Part shown: positions 3,806 through 63,757 of the stretch, in pieces | Position numbering within the stretch: the stretch's first letter is position 1 | Layout: every line of letters begins with the position of its first letter | Origin: Arenibacter sp. P308M17 | Lineage (GTDB): Bacteria > Bacteroidota > Bacteroidia > Flavobacteriales > Flavobacteriaceae | Direction: 5' to 3' | Assembly (NCBI RefSeq): GCF_003426735.1 | Contig: NZ_QVON01000001.1 | Location: 124,001 to 188,000 of the forward strand | DNA length: 64,000 nucleotides | Notes under the pieces: model-generated | Databases searched by the model: none | What the model was told of the DNA's origin: nothing | What the model saw: only the letters and a program-made list of their open reading frames with translations | Program-made: the position numbers and the translations under genes

Positions 3806-5377
3806 ATGGATGTTGGGAAAAAATTGATGTTGCCATGTTTCCTTTTATGCTTTTTTTTTCTGTCTCGGGCACAACAGTTGCCCGTTGAATATAGTTTTGG
3901 AGAAAAATATAACGATAGGTATAAATATTCCAACCTTCTAGAAATTTTAAATGATGGAATGGGAGGTTCCATATTGGTGCGTTCCTATTATACCGGTATC
4001 ATCCTGAAGCCGAAAGGATATTTTATTGAACATTATAACAAAGAACTGCAGCTGATAGGGGAACACAATTACAAGCTAAAGGGCCCCGATTTTGTAAATG
4101 CATTTGTTAGGAACGGACAACTTAATATTTTGTTCCTGAACTACGATCTTCGCAAGGGTGCCTATGATTACGTGGTACATAGCAGTCCAATGGACAATTT
4201 TAATTTTACGGAAGAGACCATTCTTTCCATACCCTCCCAACAGGTAAACCAGCCTTTGGACCACAATTACTACAAGAGGAATTTTTCATCAGGGTTTTCT
4301 ACTACAACTTTTTTCAATGAGGACAAATCCGCTTTTGCCATCAGTACCCACTATAAGAAAGGGAAAGATGAGAAACATTTTGTTTATCTATTTAACAGTA
4401 GCCTGAACAAACTCATGGAGTATGATTTTTCTGCGGAAATAGAGGAAAAGAACTATGCCTTTGAAAATATGGTTACTTCAAAAGATTTAAACCAGGTATA
4501 CCTGGTTGGTAAAGCCTATTATAAAAAGAAGCGCTTCGCGGCCACGGAACGCAGATTTCAATACGAATTGTTAAAGGTGGCCAAGGACGGTGCCCTTACA
4601 CAGACTTTTGACGACCCCGGTAAATTTTCAGAGGCCCTAAAGCCCATCATCCTAAATGATAAATTGATCTGTATTGGTTTTTATGCGGACAGAAAGGACA
4701 ATAGGTATAATGGGTTGGCCTATTTTGAACTGGATAGGAACTCCCTGGATGTCAAGGCAAAGAAATACAATGCGTTTTCCCAACAGTTTATGGAGGATAA
4801 GTTTGGTAGGGAAGAGGATACGGAAATTAAAAATTTAATTTTTAAGAACGTAAGCGTTACAAAGGATAATTCCATTCTTTTTAATGCAGAGGAGTACTTC
4901 GTTACTTCCAGTGTACAGCAGGATCCAACCGGTTCCAGGGTGCAGATCGAAAGGTTTCATTACAATGATATTGTCAGCGCCAAATTAAATCCGGAAGGAG
5001 AGATCATATGGGCAAGAAATATCAACAAGTCGGAGGTGACCCAGGGAGACGGGGCATATGCCTCATACAGTTCTTGTGCCAGTGGCGACAATACGTATTA
5101 TTTGATCAGCACGGCAGCGGAAAACCCACAATTGTTAAGTGGGGAAAGGCTGATTTTTAAACAGGGCCTTAGCCGCAACAGAAATGTGTTTATGATCCAA
5201 TTGGACAGGGAGGGAAAGATAAGTTATGAAAAGGTAATAGATGATCATGAAGCGCGACTCCCCTTAATGGTTTCCATGCCATTAATAGATAAGGAAAACA
5301 GCAATATGCTGTTTTATGCCAAAAGGGGATCCAAAAAGCAATTGGTAAGAGTGGATATTAATGGCTCCAATAACTAA
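3806..5377 (+). CDS. Secreted protein of unknown function, 523 residues
   Basis: I do not recognise this protein. It starts MDVGKKLMLPCFLLCFFFLS and continues RAQQLPVEY, a signal peptide with a likely cut after RAQ, so it should be exported. There is no lipobox Cys near the cut and no later membrane helix. The rest is rich in aromatic residues and beta-strand-like patches with repeated motifs of the type 'DRKDNRYNGLAYFELD' and 'KLNPEGEIIWARNI', suggesting a beta-propeller-like fold, as in many Bacteroidota exported proteins; this is an inference from pattern only. No C-terminal sorting domain is evident. It lies 23 bases after the crotonase gene. A repeat-bearing element begins 21 bases past its stop. 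Confidence 0.7.
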   Translation: MDVGKKLMLPCFLLCFFFLSRAQQLPVEYSFGEKYNDRYKYSNLLEILNDGMGGSILVRSYYTGIILKPKGYFIEHYNKELQLIGEHNYKLKGPDFVNAFVRNGQLNILFLNYDLRKGAYDYVVHSSPMDNFNFTEETILSIPSQQVNQPLDHNYYKRNFSSGFSTTTFFNEDKSAFAISTHYKKGKDEKHFVYLFNSSLNKLMEYDFSAEIEEKNYAFENMVTSKDLNQVYLVGKAYYKKKRFAATERRFQYELLKVAKDGALTQTFDDPGKFSEALKPIILNDKLICIGFYADRKDNRYNGLAYFELDRNSLDVKAKKYNAFSQQFMEDKFGREEDTEIKNLIFKNVSVTKDNSILFNAEEYFVTSSVQQDPTGSRVQIERFHYNDIVSAKLNPEGEIIWARNINKSEVTQGDGAYASYSSCASGDNTYYLISTAAENPQLLSGERLIFKQGLSRNRNVFMIQLDREGKISYEKVIDDHEARLPLMVSMPLIDKENSNMLFYAKRGSKKQLVRVDINGSNN

Positions 5378-23249: not shown

Positions 23250-23299
23250 ATAAACAAAAATCCCCGAAGAATAACTCTTCGGGGATTTTTTTGTTTATA
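23250..23299 (+). terminator. Strong terminator after nrdA
   Basis: AATCCCCGAAGA and TCTTCGGGGATT form a long stem extended by A-rich and T-rich flanks (AAACAAA / TTTGTTT). It begins about 20 bases past the nrdA stop and can work in both directions. Confidence 0.88.
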
Positions 23300-23838: not shown

Positions 23839-24756
23839 CTACAAAAAATTATCTTCTGATTTATAGGCGTTTATTACTGCCATTTCTCCTTCCTTGTCCG
23901 GTCTGGAATTGCCGTGTTCCATGCCCAAAACACCATTAAATCCTTTACTGTGGATATATTTGAATACATTTTTGTAATTAATTTCTCCCGTAGTAGGCTC
24001 TTTTCTGCCCGGATTGTCCCCTATTTGGATATAGTCGATCTCATCCCAGGTAAGTTCCATATTGTGTATCAGATGACCTTCCGTTTTCTGCATATGGTAG
24101 ATGTCGAACAATATTTTGCAGGACGGACTGCCCACACCTTTGCAGATCATATAGGTCTGATCGGAATTCTGCAGATACAGGTCGGGAGAGTCGGACAAAG
24201 GTTCAAGCACCATTACCAAACCGTGGGGTTCCAATATCCCCGCACCTCTTTTTAAGGCCTCTATAACATTGCCGTCCTGAATACCGATAGGCAGGTTCCT
24301 TTCAAATCCACCGGGCACAACGGTCATCCATTTGGCATTGACTCGCTTGGCCACTTCTACCGCTCTTCTACATCCGTCCAAAAAGATATCGATATACTCC
24401 TGTTTACCTGCAGCCAAGGTATTGGCCATGTTGCCCCCCTTGTCTATTACAAAAACGCCCATGGTCATATTTCGTTTTGCCAAGGCTTCCCCTATTTTGG
24501 TTTGGGTGGCCACATCCCTGCCCATCATACCGTTATCTTCCAATGCCGTAAACCCTTGGTCGGCCATAAAGTTTATTTGGTCAATGAGGTCATTGCCGGC
24601 ATGCTTCTCGAACATTCCAAAATGCGGGGCATACTTTAGGTTGAACTTATGCTTCATGTCCATATTATTAATGTTGGTTCCATAAGCTAAGGAACCTCCT
24701 AAAGTTACGGCACTGCTGGTTAGGGCGGTTTTTTGAATAAAATCTCTTCTTCTCAT
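23839..24756 (-). CDS. Tat-exported hydroxypyruvate isomerase-like TIM-barrel protein
   Basis: 305 residues of the AP-endonuclease-2/xylose-isomerase-like TIM-barrel group, closest to hydroxypyruvate isomerase. The twin-arginine start MRRRDFIQKTALTSSAVTLG is a Tat signal, so the enzyme acts folded in the periplasm. Likely metal ligands are in VLEPLSD, LFDIYHMQ, IQIGDNPGR and LGMEHGNS. It is the last gene of a minus-strand operon after the GMC dehydrogenase and its small subunit. In this context it may isomerise or open a 3-keto-sugar rather than hydroxypyruvate; that is inference. A long hairpin terminator follows. Confidence 0.82.
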   Translation of the reverse strand: MRRRDFIQKTALTSSAVTLGGSLAYGTNINNMDMKHKFNLKYAPHFGMFEKHAGNDLIDQINFMADQGFTALEDNGMMGRDVATQTKIGEALAKRNMTMGVFVIDKGGNMANTLAAGKQEYIDIFLDGCRRAVEVAKRVNAKWMTVVPGGFERNLPIGIQDGNVIEALKRGAGILEPHGLVMVLEPLSDSPDLYLQNSDQTYMICKGVGSPSCKILFDIYHMQKTEGHLIHNMELTWDEIDYIQIGDNPGRKEPTTGEINYKNVFKYIHSKGFNGVLGMEHGNSRPDKEGEMAVINAYKSEDNFL

Positions 24757-24793
24757 TTTTTTTGATAGGGTTGGAAATTAATATAACAATGCC

Positions 24794-24831
24794 AAAAGAA
24801 CCGAACGGCCATTGGCTGTTCCGGTCCTTTT
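24794..24831 (-). terminator. Imperfect hairpin between operon genes
   Basis: AAAAGAACCGAACGGCC faces GGCTGTTCCGGTCCTTTT with a short loop and a few mismatches. It lies in the 106-base gap between the small subunit and the isomerase genes. It could be a partial terminator or a processing or stability structure. Confidence 0.45.
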
Positions 24832-24862
24832 AGCTTTTTTCAATTTTTTAGATCATAATTAT

Positions 24863-25510
24863 TTATAACGACCACGCTTTTCCCCCGCTCAGTTCCTGAA
24901 GGTCACCACAGGCGATAAATTCGCCCGGTACAGGTAAATACGGCAATACATTTTCCCCTACAAACTCGGATGACTTATAGCCCAAGATGACCAAGCCCCT
25001 CAAATTATTGGCAAAGGCAAATCTTGATATATCATCTTCCAAGGAGGCCGTTTGGCCATTTTTGACCGCTTCGGTATAGGTGTTTATGACCTTAAAGTTT
25101 TTGGCCTGGTCCGCTTTGGAAATTTTGAGGGCATTGGCCAGTACCGGTTCCAAATCTTCGGGGGTTAGGTCGGCAATTTCCTTCTTGCCGCTATCCTGAA
25201 GGGCCTTATCCATAAATTTTCCCATGGTCATCTTTAATAGGTCCTGTTGTTCCTTTTCCATTACCTGATCGGCAAAACGGTCAATAAAGATATGTACCTG
25301 TACTTCGGAAGCGGAAGGCGTATCCGTCTTGGGCATTATAATATCTACCAAATGGGTCAGCACGGATCCTTCGGCGGATGTTAAAAAATCCGGGGTCCAT
25401 AAAACGGCAGCATCTTTTTTACAGCTCTGTACGATGCTGATCAAGGTGGGGGTTGCCACAGTATAGCCCAGTGCCAGCCCCATATTTTTTAGCGCTTTTC
25501 TTCTATCCAT
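24863..25510 (-). CDS. Gluconate 2-dehydrogenase subunit 3 family protein
   Basis: 215 residues, with an N-terminal Tat-type signal (MDRRKALKNMGLALGYTVAT) ending at a possible lipobox Cys (SIVQSC), then a helical domain with DFLTSAEGSVLTHLVDIIMPKTDTPSA, typical of the gluconate_2-dh3 family. These small subunits pair with a GMC flavoprotein and carry it across the membrane through Tat. The start codon shares one base with the stop region of the GMC gene (25510), so the two are coupled. It supports a periplasmic sugar dehydrogenase complex; its electron acceptor is not encoded next to it. Confidence 0.88.
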   Translation of the reverse strand: MDRRKALKNMGLALGYTVATPTLISIVQSCKKDAAVLWTPDFLTSAEGSVLTHLVDIIMPKTDTPSASEVQVHIFIDRFADQVMEKEQQDLLKMTMGKFMDKALQDSGKKEIADLTPEDLEPVLANALKISKADQAKNFKVINTYTEAVKNGQTASLEDDISRFAFANNLRGLVILGYKSSEFVGENVLPYLPVPGEFIACGDLQELSGGKAWSL

Positions 25511-27222
25511 TATATATTGCCTTTTTTAAGTTCTTTAACCGCATGATCGGCGGCCCTGGCGGTGAAGGCCATGTAGGTCAGTGATGGGTTAACACAACTG
25601 GCCGAGGTCATAAACGACCCATCGGTAACATATACATTGGGTACATCGTGGATTTGATTGTTACCGTTCAGGACCGATGTTTTTCTGTTGCGTCCCATTC
25701 TGGCGGTACCCATTTCATGGATGCCCAGACCTAGACCGGTAGGGCCATCATGTCCTTTAACATCACGCAACCCGGCCTTTTCCAACATTTCCACTGCGGA
25801 TTCCTGCATATCCTTGCGCATGTTGAACTCGTTTTCCTGTAAATCGGCATCAAAGGTTACCGTTGGTAATCCCCAGTTATCCAATTTGTCGTAATCCAAG
25901 GTCATTCTGTTATCTTCATAAGGGAGTACTTCGCCAAAACCACCAATACCCATTCTCCAACCTCCAGGTTTCAAAATACTATCCTTAAAGTCTTTGCCGT
26001 AAGAGAGCTCCGCAACCGTTTCTTCCCAATTGCCCCTACTGGCCCCCCCTTGATAGCCGAAACCACGTTTGTAATCTTTTCTATCCGAAGCACCCCCTAG
26101 GTTCCTGAATCTGGGAATATATATTCCATTGGGTCTTCGTCCTTTGTAATACTTGTCCTCGAAACCATCAAATTTACCGGAAGCCCCTACCCCCAGATGG
26201 TGGTCCATAATATTGCGTCCCAATTGATCCGAGTCGTTGCCCATACCATTGGGGAAACGATCGGATTTGGATTGCATTAAAATAGAGGTAGACGCTATGG
26301 CCGAGGCACATAGGAAAATGACCTTTGCCTTAAATTCATGTGTTTCCTTGGTTAGCCGGTCTATTACCTTTACCCCTGTGGCCTTTTTGGTATCGGGATC
26401 GTACATTACTTCATGGACAATGGAGTCTGTACGCAGGGTCATATTTCCTGTTGCTTCCGCAGCGGGGAGGGTAGAGGACAAACTACTAAAATAGCCTCCA
26501 AAAGGGCATCCCCTGATACATCTATTTCGATATTGACATTTGGTACGACCGTCAAAATTTTTGGTCCCGGTAATATGGGCAACCCTACCTATGGTAACGG
26601 CCCGGTCGTCAAAACCTTCTGTTACTTTATTTTTAAAATGTTCCTCCACACAATTCATTTCCATGGCCGGCAGAAAATCACTATCGGGCAACTGGGGCAG
26701 GTTAAGGGCCTCCCCACTTACCCCTATATAGTTTTCCACCTTTGAATACCACGGGGCAATATCTTTATAGCGCACAGGCCAATCCACGGCAATCCCATCC
26801 TTTAGGTTGGCGGTAAAATCGATATCGCTCCAACGGTAACTTTGACGTCCCCATTGTAGGGAACGCCCTCCCAAGTGGTACCCTCTCATCCAATCAAATC
26901 GTCTTATTTCATTATATGGATGTTCCAAATCATTTACGAACCACATTTTACTTGCTGCATTTGTGGTATATCCCGTTCTGTTCTGTTTGGGCTGTTTTTC
27001 AATATCTTCCCTTGTAGGTTCGCCGGCATTCGGAAAATCCCAAGGGTCCAGATTGGCCGTCTCGTAGTCTTCGATGTGTTTCACCATCCTTCCACGTTCC
27101 AGTACCAGGGTTTTGAGTCCTTTTTCACATAATTCTTTGGCGGCCCATCCTCCGCTAATGCCAGTACCCACGACAATGGCATCATATGAATCCTGCATTT
27201 CAGACGTATTGAACTTGCTCAT
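25510..27222 (-). CDS. GMC family FAD-dependent sugar dehydrogenase
   Basis: 570 residues. The FAD-binding glycine motif is VVGTGISGGWAAKEL (from about residue 17), followed by VLERG; the C-terminal GMC_oxred_C part has HEMGTARMG and TDGSFMTSASCVNPSLTYMA. It has no signal peptide of its own, consistent with export with the Tat-borne subunit 3. The closest functional class is the gluconate/sorbitol/glucoside-3-dehydrogenase group, which oxidises a sugar hydroxyl and passes electrons to a cytochrome or quinone. With two DUF1080 proteins in the same locus, glycoside C3 oxidation is the favoured role. A Cys-rich loop (CQYRNRCIRGCPFGG) is present. It is the first gene of its operon. Confidence 0.88.
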   Translation of the reverse strand: MSKFNTSEMQDSYDAIVVGTGISGGWAAKELCEKGLKTLVLERGRMVKHIEDYETANLDPWDFPNAGEPTREDIEKQPKQNRTGYTTNAASKMWFVNDLEHPYNEIRRFDWMRGYHLGGRSLQWGRQSYRWSDIDFTANLKDGIAVDWPVRYKDIAPWYSKVENYIGVSGEALNLPQLPDSDFLPAMEMNCVEEHFKNKVTEGFDDRAVTIGRVAHITGTKNFDGRTKCQYRNRCIRGCPFGGYFSSLSSTLPAAEATGNMTLRTDSIVHEVMYDPDTKKATGVKVIDRLTKETHEFKAKVIFLCASAIASTSILMQSKSDRFPNGMGNDSDQLGRNIMDHHLGVGASGKFDGFEDKYYKGRRPNGIYIPRFRNLGGASDRKDYKRGFGYQGGASRGNWEETVAELSYGKDFKDSILKPGGWRMGIGGFGEVLPYEDNRMTLDYDKLDNWGLPTVTFDADLQENEFNMRKDMQESAVEMLEKAGLRDVKGHDGPTGLGLGIHEMGTARMGRNRKTSVLNGNNQIHDVPNVYVTDGSFMTSASCVNPSLTYMAFTARAADHAVKELKKGNI

Positions 27223-27294
27223 TTATAAAATTGTTTATTTAATAAATTTATTAAATATAAAATTAATTTTTTACATTTAAACCCTATATTTATT

Positions 27295-27324
27295 AATACT
27301 ATGGCACTATAACGTTATAGTATT
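27295..27324. promoter_or_regulatory. Palindromic operator in the divergent promoter region
   Basis: ACTATAACGTTATAGT (27306-27321) is a perfect 16-base palindrome centred on AACGTT, overlapped by a second inverted pair AATACTAT (27295-27302) and ATAGTATT (27317-27324). A central CG within a symmetric A/T-rich site is typical of LacI-type repressors; this is an inference. It lies between the GMC operon and the divergent isomerase operon, so one regulator could control both. Confidence 0.55.
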
Positions 27325-27358
27325 TGTTAATTCTTGGATTTAATCTCAAAACTTGAAA

Positions 27359-28348
27359 ATGAAGCAAAAAAATTTAAAAACAAAAGGGATCAATGTAGTT
27401 TTGGCAGCCATGTTAATGGGTGTACTGTCTTGTAAGGAAGCTCCCAAGGAGCAGCCCAAAGATGTGGAGACTTCGGAAGTATCCATGAAGGCCGAAGAGC
27501 CTTTTTTTAAATTGTCATTGGCCCAGTGGTCTATGCATAGAATGGTACGCGAAGATGGCGTGGATCCCTATACCTTTGCGGAGAAGGCCAAGAATTGGGG
27601 TTTTACAGGCCTGGAGTATGTGAGCGCCCTGTACTATAAGGAATTGGAGGCCGCTAATTTTTCCGAGGAAGCTATGGCCGCCTTTGTGGAAAAGTGTAAT
27701 GCGGAAAGTAAAAAGCATGGGATGCAAAATGTCCTGATCATGATAGACGGTCAAGGAGATCTTGCTACGGCCGACGCAAATAAAAGAAAGGAAGCTGTTG
27801 AAAATCACTATAAATGGGTAGATGCGGCTGCCGCCATGGGCTGCCATGCCATTAGGGTAAACCTGTCCGGGAGCAAGGTTCCAGAGGAATGGGTGGCCAG
27901 TTCTGTGGACGGTCTAACCCAGTTGGCTACCTATGCCAAGGGGAAAAACATTGAAGTTTTGGTAGAGAACCACGGGGGGCTATCGTCCAACGCCGTTAAA
28001 TTGGCCGAGGTCATGACCAAGGTAGGTATGGATAATTGTGGCACCCTTCCCGATTTTGGTAACTTTTGTATAGAAAGAACCAAGGACGGATGTGCCGAGG
28101 AATATGACATTTACAAAGGTATTGCCGAATTAATGCCGCACGCCTTGGCCGTTAGTGCCAAGTCCTATGATTTTGATGCCGAGGGCAATGAAACCAAATT
28201 GGACTACCCCAGAATTCTTAAAATAGTCAAAGATGCCGGTTATACAGGCTTTATAGGCGTGGAATACGAAGGCAGCGTTCTAAGTGAGGAGGAAGGAATT
28301 ATCGCTACCAGGGATCTATTGATAAAGGCCGGCAAGGAACTTAATTAG
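27359..28348 (+). CDS. Lipoprotein TIM-barrel sugar phosphate isomerase/epimerase family protein
   Basis: 329 residues from the ATG at 27359 (a TTG two codons earlier is less likely). A lipoprotein signal ends in the lipobox MGVLSC, so the protein is anchored in the envelope by an acylated Cys. A xylose-isomerase-like TIM barrel follows, with LAQWSMHRM, VLVENHGGLSS, LPDFGNFC and GFIGVEYEGS carrying probable metal ligands. It is the first gene of a plus-strand operon divergent from the GMC operon. An envelope isomerase, lyase or epimerase acting on an oxidised sugar is inferred from context. Confidence 0.83.
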   Translation: MKQKNLKTKGINVVLAAMLMGVLSCKEAPKEQPKDVETSEVSMKAEEPFFKLSLAQWSMHRMVREDGVDPYTFAEKAKNWGFTGLEYVSALYYKELEAANFSEEAMAAFVEKCNAESKKHGMQNVLIMIDGQGDLATADANKRKEAVENHYKWVDAAAAMGCHAIRVNLSGSKVPEEWVASSVDGLTQLATYAKGKNIEVLVENHGGLSSNAVKLAEVMTKVGMDNCGTLPDFGNFCIERTKDGCAEEYDIYKGIAELMPHALAVSAKSYDFDAEGNETKLDYPRILKIVKDAGYTGFIGVEYEGSVLSEEEGIIATRDLLIKAGKELN

Positions 28349-28359
28349 TATTGGAATGT

Positions 28360-28803
28360 ATGAAGGCTTTTTTCAATCAGCTGTTCGATTATAACTTTTA
28401 CTGCAATAAGAAATTGATTGAAGAGTGCCAAAAGTTGGAAAATGTTCCGGAAAGGACTTCGGAACTCTTCAGTCATATATTAAATGCCCACCATATTTGG
28501 AATGCCAGAATTCTCGGTAAAAATGTGGAATTCGGGGTATTTCAATTGCATTCCTTAAAAGATTGGGGAGATCTGCATTATGAAAATCAAAGAAGTTCCT
28601 TTGAAATTGTCACCAATGTGGATAGTTTTGAAAAGCGGGTGGATTATGAGAATACCCAGGGGAGGTTGTTTACCAATACCATCCAGGATATGTTATTTCA
28701 TATCATAAACCATTCCACCCATCACAGGGCCCAGATTTCTGTCGATTTTAGAAACAACTCTATAGAACCCTTGGTCTTTGATTATTCAACTTATAAGCGA
28801 TAA
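28360..28803 (+). CDS. DinB-like superfamily protein
   Basis: 147 residues from the ATG at 28360; an upstream TTG at 28351 would add three residues. The four-helix DinB fold is marked by His residues at LNAHHIWNARILG and INHSTHHRAQI, which form the usual His3 metal site. DinB-like proteins include thiol-dependent transferases and hydrolases. It lies 11 bases after the lipoprotein isomerase gene and 16 before the MFS gene, so it belongs to the operon, but its task there is unknown. Confidence 0.8.
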   Translation: MKAFFNQLFDYNFYCNKKLIEECQKLENVPERTSELFSHILNAHHIWNARILGKNVEFGVFQLHSLKDWGDLHYENQRSSFEIVTNVDSFEKRVDYENTQGRLFTNTIQDMLFHIINHSTHHRAQISVDFRNNSIEPLVFDYSTYKR

Positions 28804-28819
28804 AAACACCTGTTAACAA

Positions 28820-30049
28820 GTGAATGTAAAGACCAAAGTTCAATTATCGTTAATGATGTTCCTCGAATTTTTTATTTGGGGAGGGTGGTTTGTAACGCTC
28901 GGCACTTTTTTGGGACAGAACCTTCAGGCCACCGGAGCCGAATCGGCAATGGCCTATTCAACCCAATCCTGGGGAGCCATAATTGCTCCCTTTATTATAG
29001 GTTTAATAGCGGACAGATACTTTAATGCAGAGCGGATTTTGGGGGTATTGCACCTCTTGGGTGCTGTAATGATGTATCAGATGTATATGGCGGTGGACTT
29101 TGCCGGTTTTTACCCCTATGTATTGGGGTACATGGTGCTTTATATGCCAACCTTGGCCTTGGTGAATTCAATTTCCTTTGGCCAAATGAAAAATCCTGCC
29201 AAGGAATTTTCATTTGTGAGGGTGTTTGGTACTATAGGTTGGATAGTGGCCGGACTAATAATTAGTTTTGTTTTTCTATGGGATTCCGAAACCTCCAGGG
29301 AACAGGGCCTTTTGAAGAATACGTTTTTAATGGTGGCAATTGCATCCGCTGCTTTGGGGATTTTTAGTTTTACCTTGCCCAAAACACCTCCAAAGGTAAA
29401 AACGGATGAAAAGGTATCCATATCGGGAATATTGGGATTGGATGCCCTAAAACTGCTAAAGGATAGGAATTTTTTTATTTTCTTTCTCTCGTCCATTCTA
29501 ATTTGTATTCCCTTGGCCTTTTATTACCAAAATGCAAATCCATTTTTGTCGGAGATCGGAATGGAAAATCCCACGGGGAAAATGACCATTGGGCAAGGTT
29601 CGGAAGTTTTATTTATGTTGTTGTTGCCTTATTTCTTCAAGAAATTTGGATTTAAAAATACCCTGATTGCCGGAATGCTGGCATGGACCATAAGGTACCT
29701 TCTGTTTGCTTACGGAAATGCCGGGGATTTGGCCTTTATGCTTTTATTGGGCATTGCCCTTCACGGTATTTGCTATGATTTTTTCTTTGTTTCCGGACAG
29801 ATCTATACGGATTCGAAGGCAGGTGATCAATTTAAAAGTGCGGCACAGGGATTGATAACCCTGGCCACCTATGGTGTTGGCATGTTGATCGGTTTTTGGG
29901 TGGCAGGAAAAATTACGGATAGTTATATAATAAGCGATGGCGTTCACAGCTGGACGGATATTTGGACATTTCCCGCTATTTTTGCCCTAGGGGCGATGGT
30001 GCTGTTCGCCATATTTTTTAAGAACGAGGAAGTAGCATATAAAGAATAA
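28820..30049 (+). CDS. NHS-family MFS permease (nucleoside:H+ symporter type)
   Basis: 409 residues with twelve hydrophobic segments. The start is GTG (VNVKTKVQLSLMMFLEFFIWGGWFV), and ALVNSISFGQMKNPAKEFSFVRVFGTIGWIVAG is a signature of the Nuc_H_symport (NupG/XapB) family. In Bacteroidota this subfamily is often found with Gfo/Idh/MocA and TIM-barrel sugar genes, so the cargo may be a modified sugar or glycoside rather than a nucleoside. It follows DinB by 16 bases and precedes the oxidoreductase by 16, in the same operon. Confidence 0.85.
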   Translation: MNVKTKVQLSLMMFLEFFIWGGWFVTLGTFLGQNLQATGAESAMAYSTQSWGAIIAPFIIGLIADRYFNAERILGVLHLLGAVMMYQMYMAVDFAGFYPYVLGYMVLYMPTLALVNSISFGQMKNPAKEFSFVRVFGTIGWIVAGLIISFVFLWDSETSREQGLLKNTFLMVAIASAALGIFSFTLPKTPPKVKTDEKVSISGILGLDALKLLKDRNFFIFFLSSILICIPLAFYYQNANPFLSEIGMENPTGKMTIGQGSEVLFMLLLPYFFKKFGFKNTLIAGMLAWTIRYLLFAYGNAGDLAFMLLLGIALHGICYDFFFVSGQIYTDSKAGDQFKSAAQGLITLATYGVGMLIGFWVAGKITDSYIISDGVHSWTDIWTFPAIFALGAMVLFAIFFKNEEVAYKE

Positions 30050-30065
30050 TTTAGGAATATATATT

Positions 30066-31202
30066 ATGAGCAAGAAAATTAGATTAGGAATTTTAGGGGG
30101 TGGAGGAGACTCCCTTATAGGGGTGCTGCACCGGGTAGCATCACAGATTAATGATAATTACGAAATTGTGGGAGCGGTCTTCAACCCGGATTTTGAGGCA
30201 AATGTTGCTTTTGCCAAGGAAATAGATGTACCCACCAATAGGATCTATAAGGATTTTGATACCTTGGTGGAAGAGGAGTTGAAATTGCCAAAAGAGGAAC
30301 GTATCCAGGTGTGTTCGGTACTTACCCCTAACTTCCTGCATTTTCCCATGGCCAAAAAATTGTTGGAAAATGGGTTTCACGTAATTTGTGAAAAGCCCAT
30401 GACCACCACTTATGAGGAGGCCAAAATACTGCAGGCCACTTTGGACAAGGCCAAGACCGTATTTGCCGTTACCCATACCTACACAGGGTATCCCATGGTT
30501 AGGCAAATGAGGGAAATGATAAAGGCCGGCGCTATCGGGAAAATACATAAGGTGGACGCACAATATTATCAAGGGTGGATCAATTCCATTATCCACGACA
30601 AGGCCAAGCGTTCAACAGTTTGGAGATTGGACCCCAAAAAGGCCGGGATCAGTTCCTGTATGGGAGATATAGGGGTTCATGCCTTTAATATGATAGAATA
30701 TACCACTGGATTGACCGTAAAATCCATTTTGGCAGATTTCAATTATTTGTACGAGGACAACCAAATGGATGTAGACGGTACGGTATTGATCCGTATGGGC
30801 AGTCATGTAAAAGGGGTTATCCGTTCCAGTCAGGTGGCTACCGGGGAGGAAAACGGACTATCGATCGCCATATATGGGGAGAAAGGTGGACTAAGATGGG
30901 AGCAGGAAAATCCCAACTATCTTTATGTACTAAGTGATGACAAGCCGCTTCAGGTGTACAAGCCGGGCCATGCCTATAATTCCAAATTGTCCCTGGACGG
31001 AACCAAATTGCCCGCAGGACATCCCGAAGGTATTTTTGATTCTATGGCCAATATTTATTTGGGCGTAGCAAGGGCCATTCGCGGGGAAAAATATAACGAT
31101 GGCGAATTCCCTACCATGTTGGACGGGGTACGCGGGCTCGATTTTATTGAGAGTTCCGTTGAGTCCAATAAAAAAGGAAACGTTTGGGTAAATTTGAGAT
31201 AA
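30066..31202 (+). CDS. Gfo/Idh/MocA family NAD(P)-dependent oxidoreductase
   Basis: 378 residues, cytoplasmic. The Rossmann part begins RLGILGGGGDSLIG and carries the family motif CEKPM (Glu109-Lys110-Pro111), followed by a substrate domain with GAIGKIHKVDAQYYQGW and CMGDIGVHAFNMIEY, whose Asp and His are the usual catalytic pair. Members oxidise or reduce sugar hydroxyls with bound NAD(H). In this operon it may oxidise or re-reduce C3 of an imported sugar. A perfect palindromic terminator follows 21 bases after the stop, closing the operon. Confidence 0.9.
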   Translation: MSKKIRLGILGGGGDSLIGVLHRVASQINDNYEIVGAVFNPDFEANVAFAKEIDVPTNRIYKDFDTLVEEELKLPKEERIQVCSVLTPNFLHFPMAKKLLENGFHVICEKPMTTTYEEAKILQATLDKAKTVFAVTHTYTGYPMVRQMREMIKAGAIGKIHKVDAQYYQGWINSIIHDKAKRSTVWRLDPKKAGISSCMGDIGVHAFNMIEYTTGLTVKSILADFNYLYEDNQMDVDGTVLIRMGSHVKGVIRSSQVATGEENGLSIAIYGEKGGLRWEQENPNYLYVLSDDKPLQVYKPGHAYNSKLSLDGTKLPAGHPEGIFDSMANIYLGVARAIRGEKYNDGEFPTMLDGVRGLDFIESSVESNKKGNVWVNLR

Positions 31203-31223
31203 AACAGAATTTAGTCGATGTAA

Positions 31224-31249
31224 AAAGGGCCGCAATTGCGGCCCTTTTC
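31224..31249. terminator. Bidirectional terminator, perfect palindrome
   Basis: A perfect 26-base palindrome with arms AAAAGGGCCGCAA and TTGCGGCCCTTTT. It lies between the ends of the convergent oxidoreductase and ASCH genes and can serve both. Confidence 0.88.
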
Positions 31250-31272
31250 TATGGAGTTTGTTTAAGTTGTTA

Positions 31273-31734
31273 TTATCCGTAGACCTTTTCAAACCCTACA
31301 CAGACCACGATCATACTATCGCGGGGAACACGGTTAAAAGGGGCCAGTTCACGGGAGAAATAGTCCCAATGGAATTTTTTCCAATGTTCCAAACTTTTAT
31401 CCCCTAGGCCGTCCAGTTGGGCGTATTCTTTGGTAATACTAAAAAATGGCTTCAGTTTTACGGCGGTTGTCCTAACAATACATTTGGCCTTGCCGCTCCA
31501 ATCCGTAAGCACAATAAAGGCTCCGATTTTGGGGAGTGGCTCTTTTCTATGTTGTAGGCCCAAAAGGGAAAAGCTGGTCGCTTTCTTAAGGTTTTTGATG
31601 ATCAGATCCACCCCTAGGTCCGCATCCCTTTCATTGTCGCCAAAATGCATCACTTTAGGCGCATCTTCAAAAGCAAATTCTAGGTGGGCGTCCAAAAAAT
31701 CACCCCACATATTTCTGGCTGAGCTATTTTCCAT
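31273..31734 (-). CDS. ASCH domain protein
   Basis: 153 residues, cytoplasmic. The order MWGDFLDAH, FGDNERDADLGVDLIIKNLKKAT, EPLPKIGAFIVLTDWSGKAKCIVRTT and DKSLEHWKKFHWDYF matches the ASCH (PUA-like) domain of the YqfB group. ASCH domains bind RNA, and some members hydrolyse N4-acetylcytidine; which applies is unknown. Its ATG overlaps the stop of the upstream small gene as TAATG, so the two are coupled. Confidence 0.8.
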   Translation of the reverse strand: MENSSARNMWGDFLDAHLEFAFEDAPKVMHFGDNERDADLGVDLIIKNLKKATSFSLLGLQHRKEPLPKIGAFIVLTDWSGKAKCIVRTTAVKLKPFFSITKEYAQLDGLGDKSLEHWKKFHWDYFSRELAPFNRVPRDSMIVVCVGFEKVYG

Positions 31735-32030
31735 TAAGAAAGTTTACCTGAATTAATTTGTTGGGCAGTGAATATATCCGCCCCTATCCTATTGTGGACA
31801 CTGCTTAATGAAACGTTGGCGTATTGGGTTAATTGTACGGCAGCTCCTATATTTTTACCGATAAAGGATGATGCCCCCAATGGTTTCCCCGTTATTGCGC
31901 AGCTATCTGTTCCAATTCTATAATGCCCTAAGGCAAATGGGGCCATAAACAGTCCGTATTTTAATCCAGGAACTATTCCTGGGATTGGTAACCGGGCCAT
32001 GATGCTGCCAAAAATTGATGGTTGATTCAT
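31734..32030 (-). CDS. Small protein of unknown function coupled to ASCH
   Basis: 98 residues from the ATG at 32030; I do not recognise a family. The N-terminal half is rich in Pro, Gly and hydrophobic residues (ARLPIPGIVPGLKYGLFMAPFALG), the rest polar with Ser, Gly and Asn. There is no signal peptide and no clear membrane helix. Its stop overlaps the ASCH start codon (TAATG), which argues for a real, translationally coupled gene. It faces the divergent sugar operon across an inverted-repeat region. Confidence 0.55.
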   Translation of the reverse strand: MNQPSIFGSIMARLPIPGIVPGLKYGLFMAPFALGHYRIGTDSCAITGKPLGASSFIGKNIGAAVQLTQYANVSLSSVHNRIGADIFTAQQINSGKLS

Positions 32031-32073
32031 GGTTTATTATTCTGATAATTCTTTTGTTATTCCTATATTTATC

Positions 32074-32153
32074 ACTTGGCTATAAAAATAACAACATCTA
32101 ATTTATAGCCTAAATATAGGATTTAATTATTAATATTATTACTATAGCCAAGT
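32074..32153. promoter_or_regulatory. Inverted-repeat operator array in a divergent promoter region
   Basis: ACTTGGCTATA (32074-32084) and TATAGCCAAGT (32143-32153) are perfect 11-base inverted repeats 58 bases apart. A third TATAGCC copy lies between them at 32104-32110. The array is upstream of the isomerase/DUF1080 operon and the divergent small gene, and suggests binding of a dimeric regulator or DNA looping. The regulator is not known. Confidence 0.45.
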
Positions 32154-32266
32154 TTGTCCAAAAAATGATATTTCAATCGTTCCAAATGGCCAATTACATT
32201 CTGGGATTATTTAATTTAGCTTTAGTTCAATACCGTACACAATTATATAACAATAAATAGAAATAC

Positions 32267-33319
32267 ATGAAAACAATTAAGGGGCCAGCCGTTTTTCTGG
32301 CACAGTTTGTCGATGAAAAAGCACCATTCAATTCTCTGGACGGAATATGCAAATGGGCATCCGATCTGGGATATAAGGGAATACAGATACCCACTTGGGT
32401 CGATTTTCTGATCGACTTGGATAAGGCTGCCGAGAGTCAGACATACTGTGATGAGTTAAAGGGAAAGATAAATTCCTATGGTTTGGAAATAACCGAACTT
32501 TCCACACATTTACAGGGGCAATTGGTGGCGGTAAACCCGGCATATGATTTAATGTTCGATAATTTTGCACCGGACAAGGTAAAGAATAATCCAAAGGCAA
32601 GAACCGAATGGGCCGTAGATGTAGTTAAAAAAGGGGCCACTGCCAGTCGCAGGCTGGGACTTAAGGCACACGCCACTTTCTCTGGCTCCCTACTTTGGCA
32701 CACTGCCCACCCTTGGCCACAAAGGCCTGCGGGATTGGTGGAAATGGGCTTCGAGGAGCTGGCAAAGAGATGGTTGCCCATCCTTAATCATTTTGATAAG
32801 GAAGGGGTGGACGTATGCTACGAAATCCATCCGGGAGAGGACCTTCATGATGGGGATACCTTTGAGCGTTTCCTGGCCGCTACCGGGAACCATAAACGGG
32901 TGAATATTTTGTACGATCCAAGTCATTTTGTACTTCAGCAATTGGATTATATTGCCTATATAGACCATTATCACGAATTCATAAAGTCTTTTCACGTTAA
33001 GGATTCCGAATTCAATCCAACGGGGAAAAAGGGGGCCTTTGGAGGCTTTAATGATTGGGGCGACCGTGCCGGTAGGTACCGTTCCCTTGGTGATGGACAG
33101 ATAGATTTCAAATCCATCTTCTCCAAATTGACCCAATACGGCTGTGATGTTTGGGCGGTTATGGAATGGGAATGCTGTATTAAGAGTCCGGAACAGGGTG
33201 CCAGGGAAGGGGCCAAGTTTATTCAGGACCATATTATAGAAGCCACCGAAAAGACCTTCGACGATTTTGCCGGGGCGGCCATAGATAAAACAGTATTAAA
33301 GAAAATATTAGGACTATAA
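32267..33319 (+). CDS. Cytoplasmic TIM-barrel sugar phosphate isomerase/epimerase family protein
   Basis: 350 residues with no signal peptide. A xylose-isomerase-like TIM barrel has probable metal ligands in CYEIHPGEDLHDG, ILYDPSHFV, SFHVKDSEF and AVMEWECC. Close relatives occur beside Gfo/Idh/MocA oxidoreductases in sugar loci; some homologues of this fold act as epimerases or as lyases on 3-keto-glycosides. It heads an operon with two DUF1080 lipoproteins; the next gene starts 16 bases on. Precise reaction not established. Confidence 0.85.
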   Translation: MKTIKGPAVFLAQFVDEKAPFNSLDGICKWASDLGYKGIQIPTWVDFLIDLDKAAESQTYCDELKGKINSYGLEITELSTHLQGQLVAVNPAYDLMFDNFAPDKVKNNPKARTEWAVDVVKKGATASRRLGLKAHATFSGSLLWHTAHPWPQRPAGLVEMGFEELAKRWLPILNHFDKEGVDVCYEIHPGEDLHDGDTFERFLAATGNHKRVNILYDPSHFVLQQLDYIAYIDHYHEFIKSFHVKDSEFNPTGKKGAFGGFNDWGDRAGRYRSLGDGQIDFKSIFSKLTQYGCDVWAVMEWECCIKSPEQGAREGAKFIQDHIIEATEKTFDDFAGAAIDKTVLKKILGL

Positions 33320-33335
33320 AATCAATTAAAGAGAA

Positions 33336-34112
33336 ATGAAAAAATTAATTTTTAGTGCCCTTATAGCTGTCATGGTTATGGGATGTAAAGAGAAGACAGA
33401 TAAAAAAGACATGGACGTGGATTCGGATCCCAATCCAATGGCAAATTCGGATGAAATGGCTCCAGAGGTAATTGAAGAAGGCGAATGGCAGGTGTTATTT
33501 GACGGCACCAATTTCGATGCCTGGAAAAGGTATTTGGAAGATGGTGTTGGGGATGCATGGAAAATAGAGGATGGGGCCATGGTATACTATCCGCCCAAAG
33601 AGCGCAAGAAAGGGGAGAAATATAATTTAGTGACCAAAGAGGACTTTACCAATTTTGTATTGTCTATAGACTGGAAAATTTCGGAAGGCGGCAATAGCGG
33701 TATTTTTTGGGGCGTTAAAGAGGTGGAAAGCCTGCCCGAGGCCTATCATTCCGGACCTGAAATCCAGGTTTTGGACAATGATAAACACCCTGACGCAAAA
33801 AATGGACCAGTAAGACAGGCTGGGGCCTTGTACGATATGGTGGGTCCCAGTGAGGACGTTACCAAACCTGTGGGGGAATGGAATACCTGCGTAATTACCG
33901 TAGACCACAACACCAACAAGGGAAATGTGGTGCTGAACGGTACGGAAGTAGCTTCTTTCCCGGTTCATGGAGAGGAATGGGACGCCATGGTCTCCAAGTC
34001 CAAATTTAAGGGATCGGAACATTTTGGAAAATATAGGACGGGAAAAATAGGCCTGCAAGATCATGGGAATATTGTGTCCTTTAAAAACATCAAGATAAAA
34101 AAGTTGGATTAA
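33336..34112 (+). CDS. DUF1080 lipoprotein, 3-keto-disaccharide hydrolase family
   Basis: 258 residues. The lipoprotein signal ends in the lipobox VMGC at about residue 17, with an acidic linker after it. The DUF1080 (PF06439) concanavalin-like domain shows WQVLFDGTNFDAWK, FVLSIDWKISEGGNSGIFWG, GPEIQVLDNDKHPD and IGLQDHGNIVSFKNIKIK. Characterised relatives hydrolyse 3-keto-glycosides made by C3 dehydrogenases. It is followed 17 bases later by a paralogue. Envelope location fits periplasmic oxidation by the GMC enzyme. Confidence 0.9.
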   Translation: MKKLIFSALIAVMVMGCKEKTDKKDMDVDSDPNPMANSDEMAPEVIEEGEWQVLFDGTNFDAWKRYLEDGVGDAWKIEDGAMVYYPPKERKKGEKYNLVTKEDFTNFVLSIDWKISEGGNSGIFWGVKEVESLPEAYHSGPEIQVLDNDKHPDAKNGPVRQAGALYDMVGPSEDVTKPVGEWNTCVITVDHNTNKGNVVLNGTEVASFPVHGEEWDAMVSKSKFKGSEHFGKYRTGKIGLQDHGNIVSFKNIKIKKLD

Positions 34113-34129
34113 ACTACATATAGGGGGTT

Positions 34130-34960
34130 ATGGGAATGAAATATATTTATATACCGTTGGTCTTGCTATTGATAGTAGCCTGTAAGGAAAAAGTGAAGGT
34201 AGACCCTTTGGAGCCAAGGGACACCACCCAAATAGGAGAGGAAATAATAGTCCACGAAGAGTATGCGGGACCTGAGCCTACCACTCCCGAAGGGACTGAA
34301 TTTTATAAACCCGTACCCCCTGTGGTCAATCCCAATGACCCTGTAAAAAAGGCTCCCAGTGATGCCATTGTTCTTTTTAATGGGGATAATTTGGACAATT
34401 GGATATCCTCCAAGGACAGCACGGCGGCAAAATGGATGGTGAACAAGGATGGCAGTATGACGGTCAGCAATAAAACCGGTGATATACAGACCGTGCAGAA
34501 TTTTGGTAGTATACAATTGCATTTGGAATGGAAATCTCCCGAAGAAGTTCAGGGAGAAAACCAAAGTAGGGGCAATAGCGGGGTATTTCTAAATGGGCTG
34601 TACGAGGTCCAGATACTGGACAACAATAACAACGACACCTATGTTAACGGACAAGTGGCTTCCATATACAAGCAACATGTACCGCTTGCCAAGGCATCCG
34701 TGCCCACTGGGGAATGGAATACCTATGACATTATTTATCACGCTCCGGAGTTCAATGATGAAGGGGGCAAGATTAAATCCGGGACCATTACCGTTTTGCA
34801 TAATGGGGTACTGGTGCAGGATCATGTTGAAATAAAGGGAACCACCCCCTATATAGGCTGGCCCAAAAACCCTGCACACGGGAAAGGCCCTTTAAAGCTC
34901 CAGGATCACGGGGACAATAGTAGGGTAAGTTACAGGAATATTTGGGTAAGGGAACTTTAA
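34130..34960 (+). CDS. DUF1080 lipoprotein, second paralogue
   Basis: 276 residues. The lipobox is LLIVAC after a short hydrophobic start; ATG at 34130 or 34136 are both possible. A longer Pro/Glu-rich linker leads into the DUF1080 domain: AIVLFNGDNLDNWISSK, LHLEWKSPEEV, SRGNSGVFLNGLYEVQILD and LKLQDHGDNSRVSYRNIWV. It shares fold motifs but not close sequence with the upstream copy, so the two likely differ in substrate or linkage. It is the last gene of the operon; yicC has its own promoter just downstream. Confidence 0.9.
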   Translation: MGMKYIYIPLVLLLIVACKEKVKVDPLEPRDTTQIGEEIIVHEEYAGPEPTTPEGTEFYKPVPPVVNPNDPVKKAPSDAIVLFNGDNLDNWISSKDSTAAKWMVNKDGSMTVSNKTGDIQTVQNFGSIQLHLEWKSPEEVQGENQSRGNSGVFLNGLYEVQILDNNNNDTYVNGQVASIYKQHVPLAKASVPTGEWNTYDIIYHAPEFNDEGGKIKSGTITVLHNGVLVQDHVEIKGTTPYIGWPKNPAHGKGPLKLQDHGDNSRVSYRNIWVREL

Positions 34961-63200: not shown

Positions 63201-63690
63201 TCCAAATTTCCTCCTTTTGAACCGCAAGGTCCCTCCAATCATGGATACTGTCCCTATTGAGGTCCTTTAGCCATTCGTTTTCCGAACTTTTTTCGGTTGC
63301 AAAGGTTTCGTGCAGGAAGTTCTTTCGGTCTGCCACGGATTGCAAGGCAATGGAAGGGGTCATCCAATGCCTAAATCCCCTGATATCAAATTCTGAATTT
63401 TTTTGGCGATTGGTCCTGGTCAGGTATATGTTGCCCTGGTCATCTACGGACATGGCCACCGGATCTGGAGCCAAAGAATCCGAAGCCCATAAGGACAGCG
63501 TTAGTCCATCGGCAACTTGTGCGGGAACACTTTCCCTAATTTCCTTAAATCTGGACCGGACAGTTGTCGTATCCTCTTTAATGACCAACAGAGGTTCCTG
63601 TGGTTGCTTCGGCTTTTTATCGCAGGACATGGTTAAAATGCCAAAAAGAGTAACTATGAGGGCAATTCTGAAGGAAAGGTTGTTTCGCAT
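60280..63690 (-). CDS. Large lipoprotein: sorbosone-dehydrogenase-like propeller, HEAT repeats and cytochrome c
   Basis: 1136 residues. A lipoprotein signal (LFGILTMSC) anchors it. Residues about 50-480 form a beta-propeller like the L-sorbosone/glucose-dehydrogenase group (PVC-type, DUF7133-like), about 510-970 are HEAT-like helical repeats (ARVRFFAAQALGRI), and the C-terminus has a haem-binding CVRCH motif and an axial-Met candidate in SGMPAMG. It may pass electrons from a periplasmic sugar oxidation. It is single-gene, on the minus strand. Confidence 0.85.
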   Translation of the reverse strand: MRNNLSFRIALIVTLFGILTMSCDKKPKQPQEPLLVIKEDTTTVRSRFKEIRESVPAQVADGLTLSLWASDSLAPDPVAMSVDDQGNIYLTRTNRQKNSEFDIRGFRHWMTPSIALQSVADRKNFLHETFATEKSSENEWLKDLNRDSIHDWRDLAVQKEEIWKLEDQDGNGMANVATRILNNFHEETSDVAGALLVRKNDMFVGIAPDMWRITDEDGDGIMNHKTSISHGYGVHIGFGGHGMSGAVEGPDGRIYWGIGDIGANITTTDGTQHKYPNQGVIVRSNPDGSDFEVFAAGVRNTHEFVFDEYGNIITADNDGDHRGESERLVYIVEGSDAGWRSNWQYGKYTDPKNNGYNVWMDEKLYVPHWEGQAAYIIPPLMNFHNGPTGMAYNPGTALGKEWRNKFFLVEFVGNPSRSHIWSFDLKPKGASFELNKEQDILSGILPTGIRFAPDGALYIADWINGWDTKNYGRVWKLDVAPNKNNLEAERKETERLMTLDYTDQRIDQLIQLLSYPDMRIRQKAQFELANRDNKGFNAFNKAIAAGGNQMARIHGIWGIGQLARLKLDRAEPLLNLLKERDAEIVSQAAKTLGDVKYGDAAKDLIPLLRHNNARVRFFAAQALGRIKDKNAVQPLLTMLEANNDEDLYLRHAGVLALARIGEVAPIVALAKHESRSLRIAAVLVLRRLQNEQLALFLQDKDEFIVTEAARAINDDWSIEPALPALASLLKEEKFTSEPLLRRSINAALRVGGERELDLLVNFAKRESVSSVLRSEALAAIGTWASPSVLDRVDGRYRGEINRDAHMVRQKIEKYIPDFLKDKNPDILVAASKAISTLKIEGYNAQLARIMKQNASAEVRSAMLAALGDLNYTKIEEAMKIGMADRDRDVRTVAVGLVTQLDLPKEKLPAIVEPIFKSGSIVEQQKMLGVLGEMPLEKSRDVLISLIKQGIGKKLSNGVILDLTEAVEATKSEELIGQLSSLKAHGDGLDAYAETLNGGDRRQGYQYFNTNSAGQCVRCHAVGGAGGAVGPALDNIGNILSREQLLEALINPSARLSPGYGVVTVTLKDGQTVTGILEEETEDELILKTSDAEPMEIALTRIDKRQNMASGMPAMGTIMSKREIRDVIEFLANMKKE

Positions 63691-63757
63691 GTGTTTACAT
63701 TGGTCTTAAAAGGCGCAAAATATACGTGTATATATCAGCATTATAAAATATTGCTTG

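Follow-up and report, generated by a model that had tools for sequence, protein, structure and literature searches.

A candidate flavobacterial locus for glycoside utilisation by C3 oxidation, elimination, hydration and reduction

Genes and gene order at the locus

The stretch of DNA analysed here, called the window below, comprises 64,000 nucleotides of Arenibacter sp. P308M17 (contig NZ_QVON01000001.1, positions 124,001 to 188,000), and the subject of this work is a candidate glycoside utilisation locus at window positions 23839-34960. The host is probably a marine flavobacterium, and among the matches listed the nearest GMC loci are those of Arenibacter algicola (98%) and A. troitsensis (97%). 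An initial annotation, made from the sequence alone, had listed a GMC dehydrogenase with a subunit 3, three TIM barrels, an NHS-type permease, a Gfo/Idh/MocA oxidoreductase and two DUF1080 proteins. All of these were recovered at the positions it had given, each over its cut-off in a Pfam profile search, which included the PF06439, PF13618 and GMC families. Genes of the DinB and ASCH families, at 28351-28803 and 31273-31734, were absent from its list. The genes of the locus are as follows.

23839-24756, minus strand: AP_endonuc_2 TIM barrel with a twin-arginine translocation (Tat) signal (Pfam, 96.4 bits)
24863-25510, minus strand: PF13618 Gluconate_2-dh3 small subunit (subunit 3) with a twin-arginine (RR) motif and a lipobox (94.1 bits)
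25510-27222, minus strand: GMC flavo-dehydrogenase, candidate glycoside 3-dehydrogenase (PF05199, 76.5 bits; PF00732, 46.7 bits)
27353-28348, plus strand: lipoprotein AP_endonuc_2 TIM barrel, candidate exported 3-keto-glycoside lyase or epimerase (Pfam, 87.0 bits)
28351-28803, plus strand: DinB-family protein, possibly a bystander (PF05163, 48.2 bits)
28820-30049, plus strand: Nuc_H_symport (NHS-type) permease, candidate keto-sugar importer (PF03825, 389.8 bits)
30066-31202, plus strand: Gfo/Idh/MocA oxidoreductase, candidate 3-keto-sugar reductase (Pfam)
31273-31734, minus strand: ASCH-domain protein, probably a bystander, convergent with the Gfo gene (PF04266, 61.3 bits)
32267-33319, plus strand: AP_endonuc_2 protein, 2-hydroxy-3-keto-glucal hydratase homologue without an evident signal peptide (8ro4 match)
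33336-34112, plus strand: PF06439 (DUF1080) lipoprotein 1, candidate 3-keto-glycoside lyase or hydrolase (163.3 bits, cut-off 26.8)
34130-34960, plus strand: PF06439 (DUF1080) lipoprotein 2, of the 4qhz subfamily (135.2 bits, cut-off 26.8)

Judging by their spacing, the genes can be divided into three presumed operons. The minus-strand group holds the GMC gene, the PF13618 subunit gene, which shares one base with it, and the Tat TIM barrel. The divergent plus-strand group consists of the lipoprotein TIM barrel, DinB, the NHS permease and Gfo, with gaps of 2 to 16 bases. The second plus-strand group, formed by the hydratase homologue and the two DUF1080 lipoproteins with gaps of 16 and 17 bases, stops 48 bases short of yicC-gmk-nadD.

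Protein families, signals and solved relatives

By its close end-to-end similarity to a solved enzyme, the protein of 32267-33319 is a hydratase homologue. It matches the 8ro4 chain, named 2-hydroxy-3-keto-glucal hydratase, with 542.5 bits (E 4.6e-162, residues 1-350 on 1-349), and its second-best solved match reaches 154 bits. The source of 8ro4 is, we assume, A. tumefaciens. The initial annotation had described this protein as a cytoplasmic isomerase-type TIM barrel; the TIM barrel and the lack of an evident signal peptide stand, and the isomerase gives way to a hydratase homologue. Because of the 8ro4 match, the route would be elimination followed by hydration and reduction, not plain hydrolysis.

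Both DUF1080 genes exceed the PF06439 cut-off, so a 3-keto-glycoside lyase gene is represented at the family level. DUF1080 protein 1 matches 8rr2 and 8tda, which we take to be BT2157, at about 120 bits and has the 8rr2 motifs PE.QVLDN, RQ...LYDM and QDHG. DUF1080 protein 2 matches 4qhz with 264.3 bits and has QDHG in place of the QSHG of 4qhz. A lipobox-like site is present in 53/53 orthologues of protein 1 and in 40/47 of protein 2 (47 of 51 kept); in these and all following signal-motif counts, rows with a truncated start are excluded and the motifs were judged by eye and pattern. After the lipobox Cys, mostly one acidic residue is found at +2 to +5 in the orthologues, a pattern that would speak neither clearly for nor clearly against a surface-export signal. 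The solved DUF1080 structures are mostly labelled just putative glycosyl or sugar hydrolases. In the whole genome there are 27 PF06439 places, 26 of them over the cut-off, with three open reading frames (ORFs) carrying two domains each. Since only four PF13618 genes were found in this genome, most of its DUF1080 proteins cannot adjoin a dehydrogenase of this type.

The GMC protein could be aligned over its length with the large subunit of fructose dehydrogenase (about 131 bits). His502, Asn545 and Cys229/235/239 are invariant in 81/81 sequences and pair with the His, the Asn and the Cys triad of that enzyme; presumably His502 and Asn545 form the GMC catalytic pair and the triad holds an iron-sulphur cluster. 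In subunit 3, an RR motif and a lipobox-like site were seen in 80/80 orthologues in a wider search (RR in 79/80 in a narrower one), and this subunit likely carries the GMC subunit out of the cytoplasm. A C3 flavo-dehydrogenase with a Tat-borne partner is thereby represented at the level of family and RR motif. Additionally, in several relatives the same cluster carries a further GMC gene beside the hydratase, with about 67-68% identity to that of the window (for example G001:C16:113442-115130 and 125224-126933; similarly in G011, G026, G120 and G129).

The two exported TIM barrels differ in their signals and nearest folds. The RR motif of the Tat TIM barrel is present in 48/48 orthologues. Its AlphaFold2 model (mean pLDDT, the predicted local distance difference test, 80.6) is nearest to 3ngf (Z 28.7, root mean square deviation (rmsd) 2.3, 245 aligned) and then to 1k77 (Z 27.9, rmsd 2.6, 249 aligned). 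The predicted fold is hydroxypyruvate-isomerase-like, a likeness of fold that does not show function. The model of the lipoprotein TIM barrel (mean pLDDT 88.3) is nearest to 4ovx, an uncharacterised protein (Z 41.3, rmsd 1.3, 269 aligned), and Foldseek ranks 2-10 are occupied by C-glycoside deglycosidases of the DgpB/C and DfgA/B kind. The Z values of these deglycosidases, 24.9-26.2, tie with sugar epimerases, and the isomerase 8z1i is higher at 29.3. No structure of AtOGE, a beta-eliminase of A. tumefaciens, was recognised among the matches listed for this fold comparison. A lipobox-like site occurs in 74/76 orthologues of the lipoprotein TIM barrel and an RR motif in 38/76, the window copy being without RR, which suggests that close relatives differ in their export route (Tat or Sec).

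Linkage within and beyond the family

Conservation of the locus was followed in the best 80 of 587 loci by GMC match, which therefore are close relatives; 19 of the 80 are shorter than the full stretch, and tblastn hits covering less than 40% of the query were dropped. Subunit 3 was found in all 80, the lipoprotein TIM barrel in 76, Gfo in 70, the hydratase in 62, the NHS permease in 61, the two DUF1080 genes in 54 and 55, and the Tat TIM barrel in 48. The DinB gene (69/80) and the ASCH gene (68/80) are kept as well. So are the housekeeping genes nrdA (49), yicC (46), nrdB (45) and gmk (31). Conservation within Flavobacteriaceae is thus partly old housekeeping synteny (nrdAB, yicC-gmk). The check proposed with the initial annotation, neighbour conservation across flavobacteria, gave a divided answer: the genes are kept in the nearest loci, but this is confounded by the shared housekeeping neighbours, and convincing linkage therefore has to come from outside the family.

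Such linkage was sought in a draw of 198 genomes from the phylum; hydratase matches at E 1e-80 or better lie at 45 places in 43 of these. The 44 places beyond that of the window were searched with profiles from family loci, trained on sequences above 35% of the best score at 70% coverage; 7 belong to the same family and 37 (35 genomes) to others. Three of the 37 stretches (L136, L141, L143) are shorter than full. Gfo was found in 31 of the 37 outside-family loci, so that the Gfo/Idh/MocA gene, at 30066-31202 in the window, is linked to the hydratase widely; NHS was found in 23, DUF1080 in 17, GMC in 16, subunit 3 in 13, a Tat TIM profile match in 13 and a lipoprotein TIM profile match in 1. 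The housekeeping flanks, DinB and ASCH were each found in none (0/37). At least one of Gfo, NHS, GMC and DUF1080 is present in 34/37 loci, and at least two in 25/37. Some of the outside-family matches are weak: those of subunit 3 lie at 38-113 bits, those of the Tat TIM profile, whose signal was not checked, at 58-84 bits, two of DUF1080 at 40 and 44 bits and one of GMC (L144) at 80 bits. With a floor of 100 bits, the counts become Gfo 31, NHS 23, DUF1080 15 and GMC 15, with at least one in 33, L144 being the additional miss, and at least two in 25. In the 16 distant loci with GMC, Gfo occurs in 15, and NHS, DUF1080 and subunit 3 in 13 each. Control stretches gave 0/16 for every profile; they were placed at chosen round-number positions, not by random draw, in 16 of these genomes, of which three belong to the family of the window. 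The linkage that the initial annotation expected among relatives is therefore borne out beyond the family, with 34/37 loci against 0/16 controls.

Co-occurrence was also compared in 149 family genomes, one per genus. The hydratase is present in 71 (E 1e-80) and GMC in 77 (E 1e-100), and PF06439 matches occur in at least 98 (E 0.001), at least 92 of them over the cut-off; PF06439 was scored on up to 20 candidates per genome, so these are lower bounds in rich genomes. All 71 genomes with the hydratase have a PF06439 match, and 69 of the 71 have GMC. Neither hydratase nor PF06439 was found in 51 genomes, and PF06439 without the hydratase in 27. Because the genomes are related by descent, Fisher values for this co-occurrence overstate the evidence.

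Of all proteins in the cluster, the hydratase is conserved best: its median identity to the window is 92% (all measured loci), against 58% and 71% for the DUF1080 proteins. In the 32 loci where nrdA, hydratase, GMC, Gfo and NHS were all measured, the hydratase has a median of 92%, followed by nrdA (90%), Gfo (84%), GMC (80%) and NHS (73%); the two DUF1080s have 58% (28 loci having it) and 70% (20 loci). The hydratase identity exceeds that of nrdA in 29/32 loci, by a simple identity measure that is not a selection test. With a hydratase better conserved than ribonucleotide reductase in these loci, the metabolism appears old and vertically inherited, and the cluster looks like an old core with faster-changing outer parts. 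An intracellular intermediate that stays the same, with glycosides outside that vary, would agree with this pattern. The stricter conservation of the hydratase would favour an intermediate that is common and constant over a niche polysaccharide.

A hydratase homologue also occurs in 310 plasmid records (E 1e-60), in 87 of them under 60% identity. Three plasmid loci were examined, and the full set was found in one, L183 of a Pseudoalteromonas sp. CF6-2 plasmid, whose hydratase, DUF1080 and GMC are 69%, 36% and 31% identical to those of the window. The Croceicoccus plasmid locus L181 carries Gfo, hydratase, subunit 3, GMC (47%), TIM barrels, other transporters and a GH3 enzyme.

Among the remaining features of the window, a hairpin of 15 pairs followed by a T run lies downstream of nrdA (23256-23290). 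Terminator-like sites in the window exceed shuffles (25 vs 17.4, standard deviation 3.3), and promoter-like sites are not above them (39 vs a mean of 34.6, standard deviation 6.7). The window has no tRNA genes and no Rfam match at the gathering threshold. A 98-residue ORF at 31734-32030 (minus strand) was dropped as probably spurious, since it matches no Pfam family and finds no counterpart at 1e-10 among the 80 nearest loci. One of the 25 complete window ORFs above 300 residues, at 3806-5377 (plus strand, 523 residues), is without any Pfam match.

Proposed route, its alternatives and known systems

We consider it probable that the locus serves glycoside utilisation by C3 oxidation, elimination, hydration and reduction. 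From the observed families, linkage, signal motifs and hydratase similarity, we infer the reactions, their order, their compartments and the transporter cargo as follows. The GMC protein, exported on the Tat-borne subunit 3, would oxidise a glycoside at C3 in the periplasm or at the envelope membrane. One or both DUF1080 lipoproteins would then release the aglycone by elimination, leaving 2-hydroxy-3-keto-glucal; for other anomers or aglycones, the lipoprotein TIM barrel may perhaps assist. The keto-sugar would be imported by the NHS-type permease, the cytoplasmic hydratase would add water to give 3-keto-glucose, and the Gfo/Idh/MocA enzyme, a candidate reductase by its gene setting, would reduce this to glucose. 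Hydration and reduction are probably located in the cytoplasm. The initial annotation had placed C3 oxidation and cleavage outside, followed by import; a linked and partly exported locus for C3 oxidation and cleavage is retained, but given the hydratase homologue its simple 3-keto hydrolysis is the less likely reading.

Several observations weigh against this route. None of Gfo, NHS, GMC and DUF1080 lies within 9.4 kb of the hydratase in L123, L133 and L139 (3/37), two of which, L123 and L133, are second copies in genomes whose other copy adjoins an NHS gene. GMC is missing within the same distance in 21/37 distant hydratase loci. In L183, the NHS, subunit 3 and TIM proteins of the window have no tblastn match at 1e-5, so its transporter, subunit 3 and TIM calls rest on annotation; L181 has no annotated DUF1080; and a Phyllobacterium plasmid locus, L182, has a hydratase, Gfo and an ABC transporter only. 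The permease, Gfo and the TIM barrels all score under their NCBIfam cut-offs. The best such match of Gfo is levoglucosan dehydrogenase (94.4 bits, cut-off 650), and because this is a dehydrogenase, Gfo may act either as a reductase or as a dehydrogenase. PMC13273386 speaks of a hydration-deficient variant of a Bacteroides lyase, from which it would seem that the wild-type enzyme itself adds water to the elimination product; DUF1080 could therefore finish cleavage outside the cell.

A further point of the same kind concerns the electron acceptor. A CXXCH scan of window ORFs of at least 80 residues showed no cytochrome c gene in the cluster, an absence that is firm for this window within that scope, and the acceptor would therefore be encoded elsewhere or be of another kind. 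The sole ORF of that size bearing CXXCH lies at 60283-63705; the protein encoded there (60280-63690, minus strand, 1136 residues), 25 kb from the locus, combines DUF7133 and HEAT repeats with a cytochrome c motif. In the phylum draw, an ORF bearing CXXCH is next to the hydratase in 14/23 loci with GMC, 2 of the 14 being in the family of the window. Such ORFs (121-208 residues between stops) lie beside the hydratase in L110, L111, L114, L116, L119 and L122 of other families; further loci of other families are L127, L130, L131, L138, L140 and L141, and those of the same family are L117 and L129. The ORF beside the hydratase in these loci is a candidate electron acceptor that is not present in the cluster of the window. 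CXXCH ORFs within 5 kb of the GMC gene were flagged in 17/80 related loci, not inspected singly, and any CXXCH ORF occurs in 5/16 controls.

Four other explanations were weighed. The DUF1080 proteins might perform net hydrolysis outside the cytoplasm, with the 3-keto-sugar imported and reduced and the hydratase only rescuing imported glycal, a scheme close to that of the initial annotation. The hydration-deficient Bacteroides variant speaks for it, as do the passages of PMC9007349 that treat DUF1080 as a 3'-ketolactose hydrolase. However, the hydratase is the cluster's most conserved protein, well above both DUF1080s, and in 8/37 distant loci it stands with Gfo and NHS but no DUF1080 within 9.4 kb; for these reasons it looks like a core enzyme rather than a rescue, and this explanation is judged unlikely. 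Somewhat less credit still is given to a route chiefly for lactose, galactosides or another single sugar of the LacABC type, in which the TIM barrels would be 3-keto-sugar epimerases. In that type, LacA is the GMC protein and the cytochrome is LacB. The composition of the window's cluster resembles that of a Caulobacter cluster with dehydrogenase, DUF1080, transporter, two epimerases and reductase (passages of PMC9007349). In fold comparison, the exported TIM barrels match the 3-keto-D-glucoside 4-epimerase YcjR with Z 24.5 and 25.8, tied with many other matches. Yet the cytochrome c subunit that the LacABC type encodes with its dehydrogenase was not seen in the window's cluster, and the hydratase named for 8ro4 acts on a glucal.

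A locus for the catabolism of inositol, hydroxypyruvate or nucleosides, with no relation to 3-keto-glycosides, is very improbable. It would draw on NCBIfam matches to IolE (59.4 of 290 bits), IolG (55.3 of 355), hydroxypyruvate isomerase TIGR03234 (the Tat TIM barrel, 112.5 of 353.45) and nucleoside permease TIGR00889 (the NHS permease, 369.9 of 446.1). All of these are under their cut-offs, for which reason such catabolism was rejected, and the hydratase and DUF1080 matches are far stronger. It is similarly improbable, finally, that the neighbourhood persists only as an old chromosome segment whose genes do not cooperate. The housekeeping genes kept in the 80 nearest loci would agree with this, but outside the family the flanks are absent and a catabolic partner is nearly always retained, and by these counts unrelated genes in old synteny were rejected.

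Within the preferred route of oxidation, elimination, hydration and reduction, a more specific form can be put forward tentatively, as possible rather than probable. It would be an ancestral, vertically inherited pathway of marine Flavobacteriaceae split across the inner membrane, with DUF1080 and an exported TIM-barrel lyase acting outside, 2-hydroxy-3-keto-glucal taken up by the NHS permease, and hydration and reduction inside. We know of no NHS-family member that carries a compound of the 2-hydroxy-3-keto-glucal type, and no search aimed at one was made.

Comparison with known systems places the locus among published ones. A non-hydrolytic glucoside pathway has reportedly been described by Kastner et al. 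in 2024, and Nasseri et al. are said to have described, in the same year, a 3-keto pathway of Bacteroides thetaiotaomicron (BT2157-BT2159) with a PF06439 lyase or hydrolase and C3 oxidation by the Gfo family. NCBIfam names BT_2158_fam and BT_2159_fam 3-dehydrogenases. The window shares with BT2157-BT2159 a PF06439 protein and a Gfo-type oxidoreductase, and, unlike that system, probably uses GMC and subunit 3 for C3 oxidation. Passages of PMC10628242 describe an A. tumefaciens operon that pairs the C3 flavo-dehydrogenase GlycDH, the beta-eliminase AtOGE, the hydratase AtHYD (on preliminary evidence) and a Gfo reductase. A C3 flavo-dehydrogenase, two TIM barrels, one of them a putative hydratase, and a Gfo reductase are common to both; in contrast to that operon, the window probably cleaves by DUF1080 lipoproteins and has an NHS-type permease and two exported TIM barrels. 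By analogy, the window likely holds the same functional set, with the DUF1080s as lyases.

The Caulobacter cluster, according to passages of PMC9007349, holds LacABC, two DUF1080s, a transporter, two epimerases and a reductase; fitness data tie clusters of this type to growth on lactose, salicin and raffinose, and relatives, among them clusters in Bacteroidetes, are given in Indibacter, Halomonas and Algoriphagus, together with a Pedobacter dehydrogenase. The window resembles it in the dehydrogenase, the two DUF1080s nearby, the transporter, two TIM barrels comparable to its sugar epimerases and the reductase. It differs in that no LacB-like cytochrome c was seen, and those passages describe no hydratase. 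A section of PMC6950322 places Zobellia GMC proteins alongside proven FAD-dependent glycoside oxidoreductases, with identities of 53-58%. Both cases thus concern flavobacterial GMC proteins proposed as glycoside oxidases, while that section proposes no locus or pathway. Two Zobellia genomes encode proteins with 88-89% identity to the GMC protein of the window; these may be among the proteins of PMC6950322 (up to five). Like the window, the Pseudoalteromonas locus L183 has Gfo, hydratase, MFS, DUF1080, GMC, subunit 3 and TIM barrel annotated in one run; it differs in having one DUF1080, a distant GMC, a different gene order and an MFS transporter that need not belong to the NHS family.

The initial annotation had set the locus apart from the usual polysaccharide loci. 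No SusC, SusD or glycoside hydrolase family was found among the 25 complete window ORFs above 300 residues (shorter ORFs were partly scanned), so this part holds; the locus is not an oddity, since similar clusters and enzymes have been published. As one defined and conserved set, it allows the whole route from glycoside to glucose to be tested, including an inner-membrane carrier of keto-sugars, and it allows one to ask why flavobacteria retain non-hydrolytic glycoside cleavage. Should the locus act on a common algal or osmolyte glycoside, it would add a route of marine carbon turnover to which counts of classical glycoside hydrolases are blind. A literature search gave, among the matches listed, no title describing a flavobacterial cluster of this make-up. 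Such a route has already been described in other bacteria, and the C3 oxidation step was already proposed for flavobacteria in the section of PMC6950322 considered here. The conserved flavobacterial cluster itself is well supported, and it is most likely a further case of this known non-hydrolytic route.

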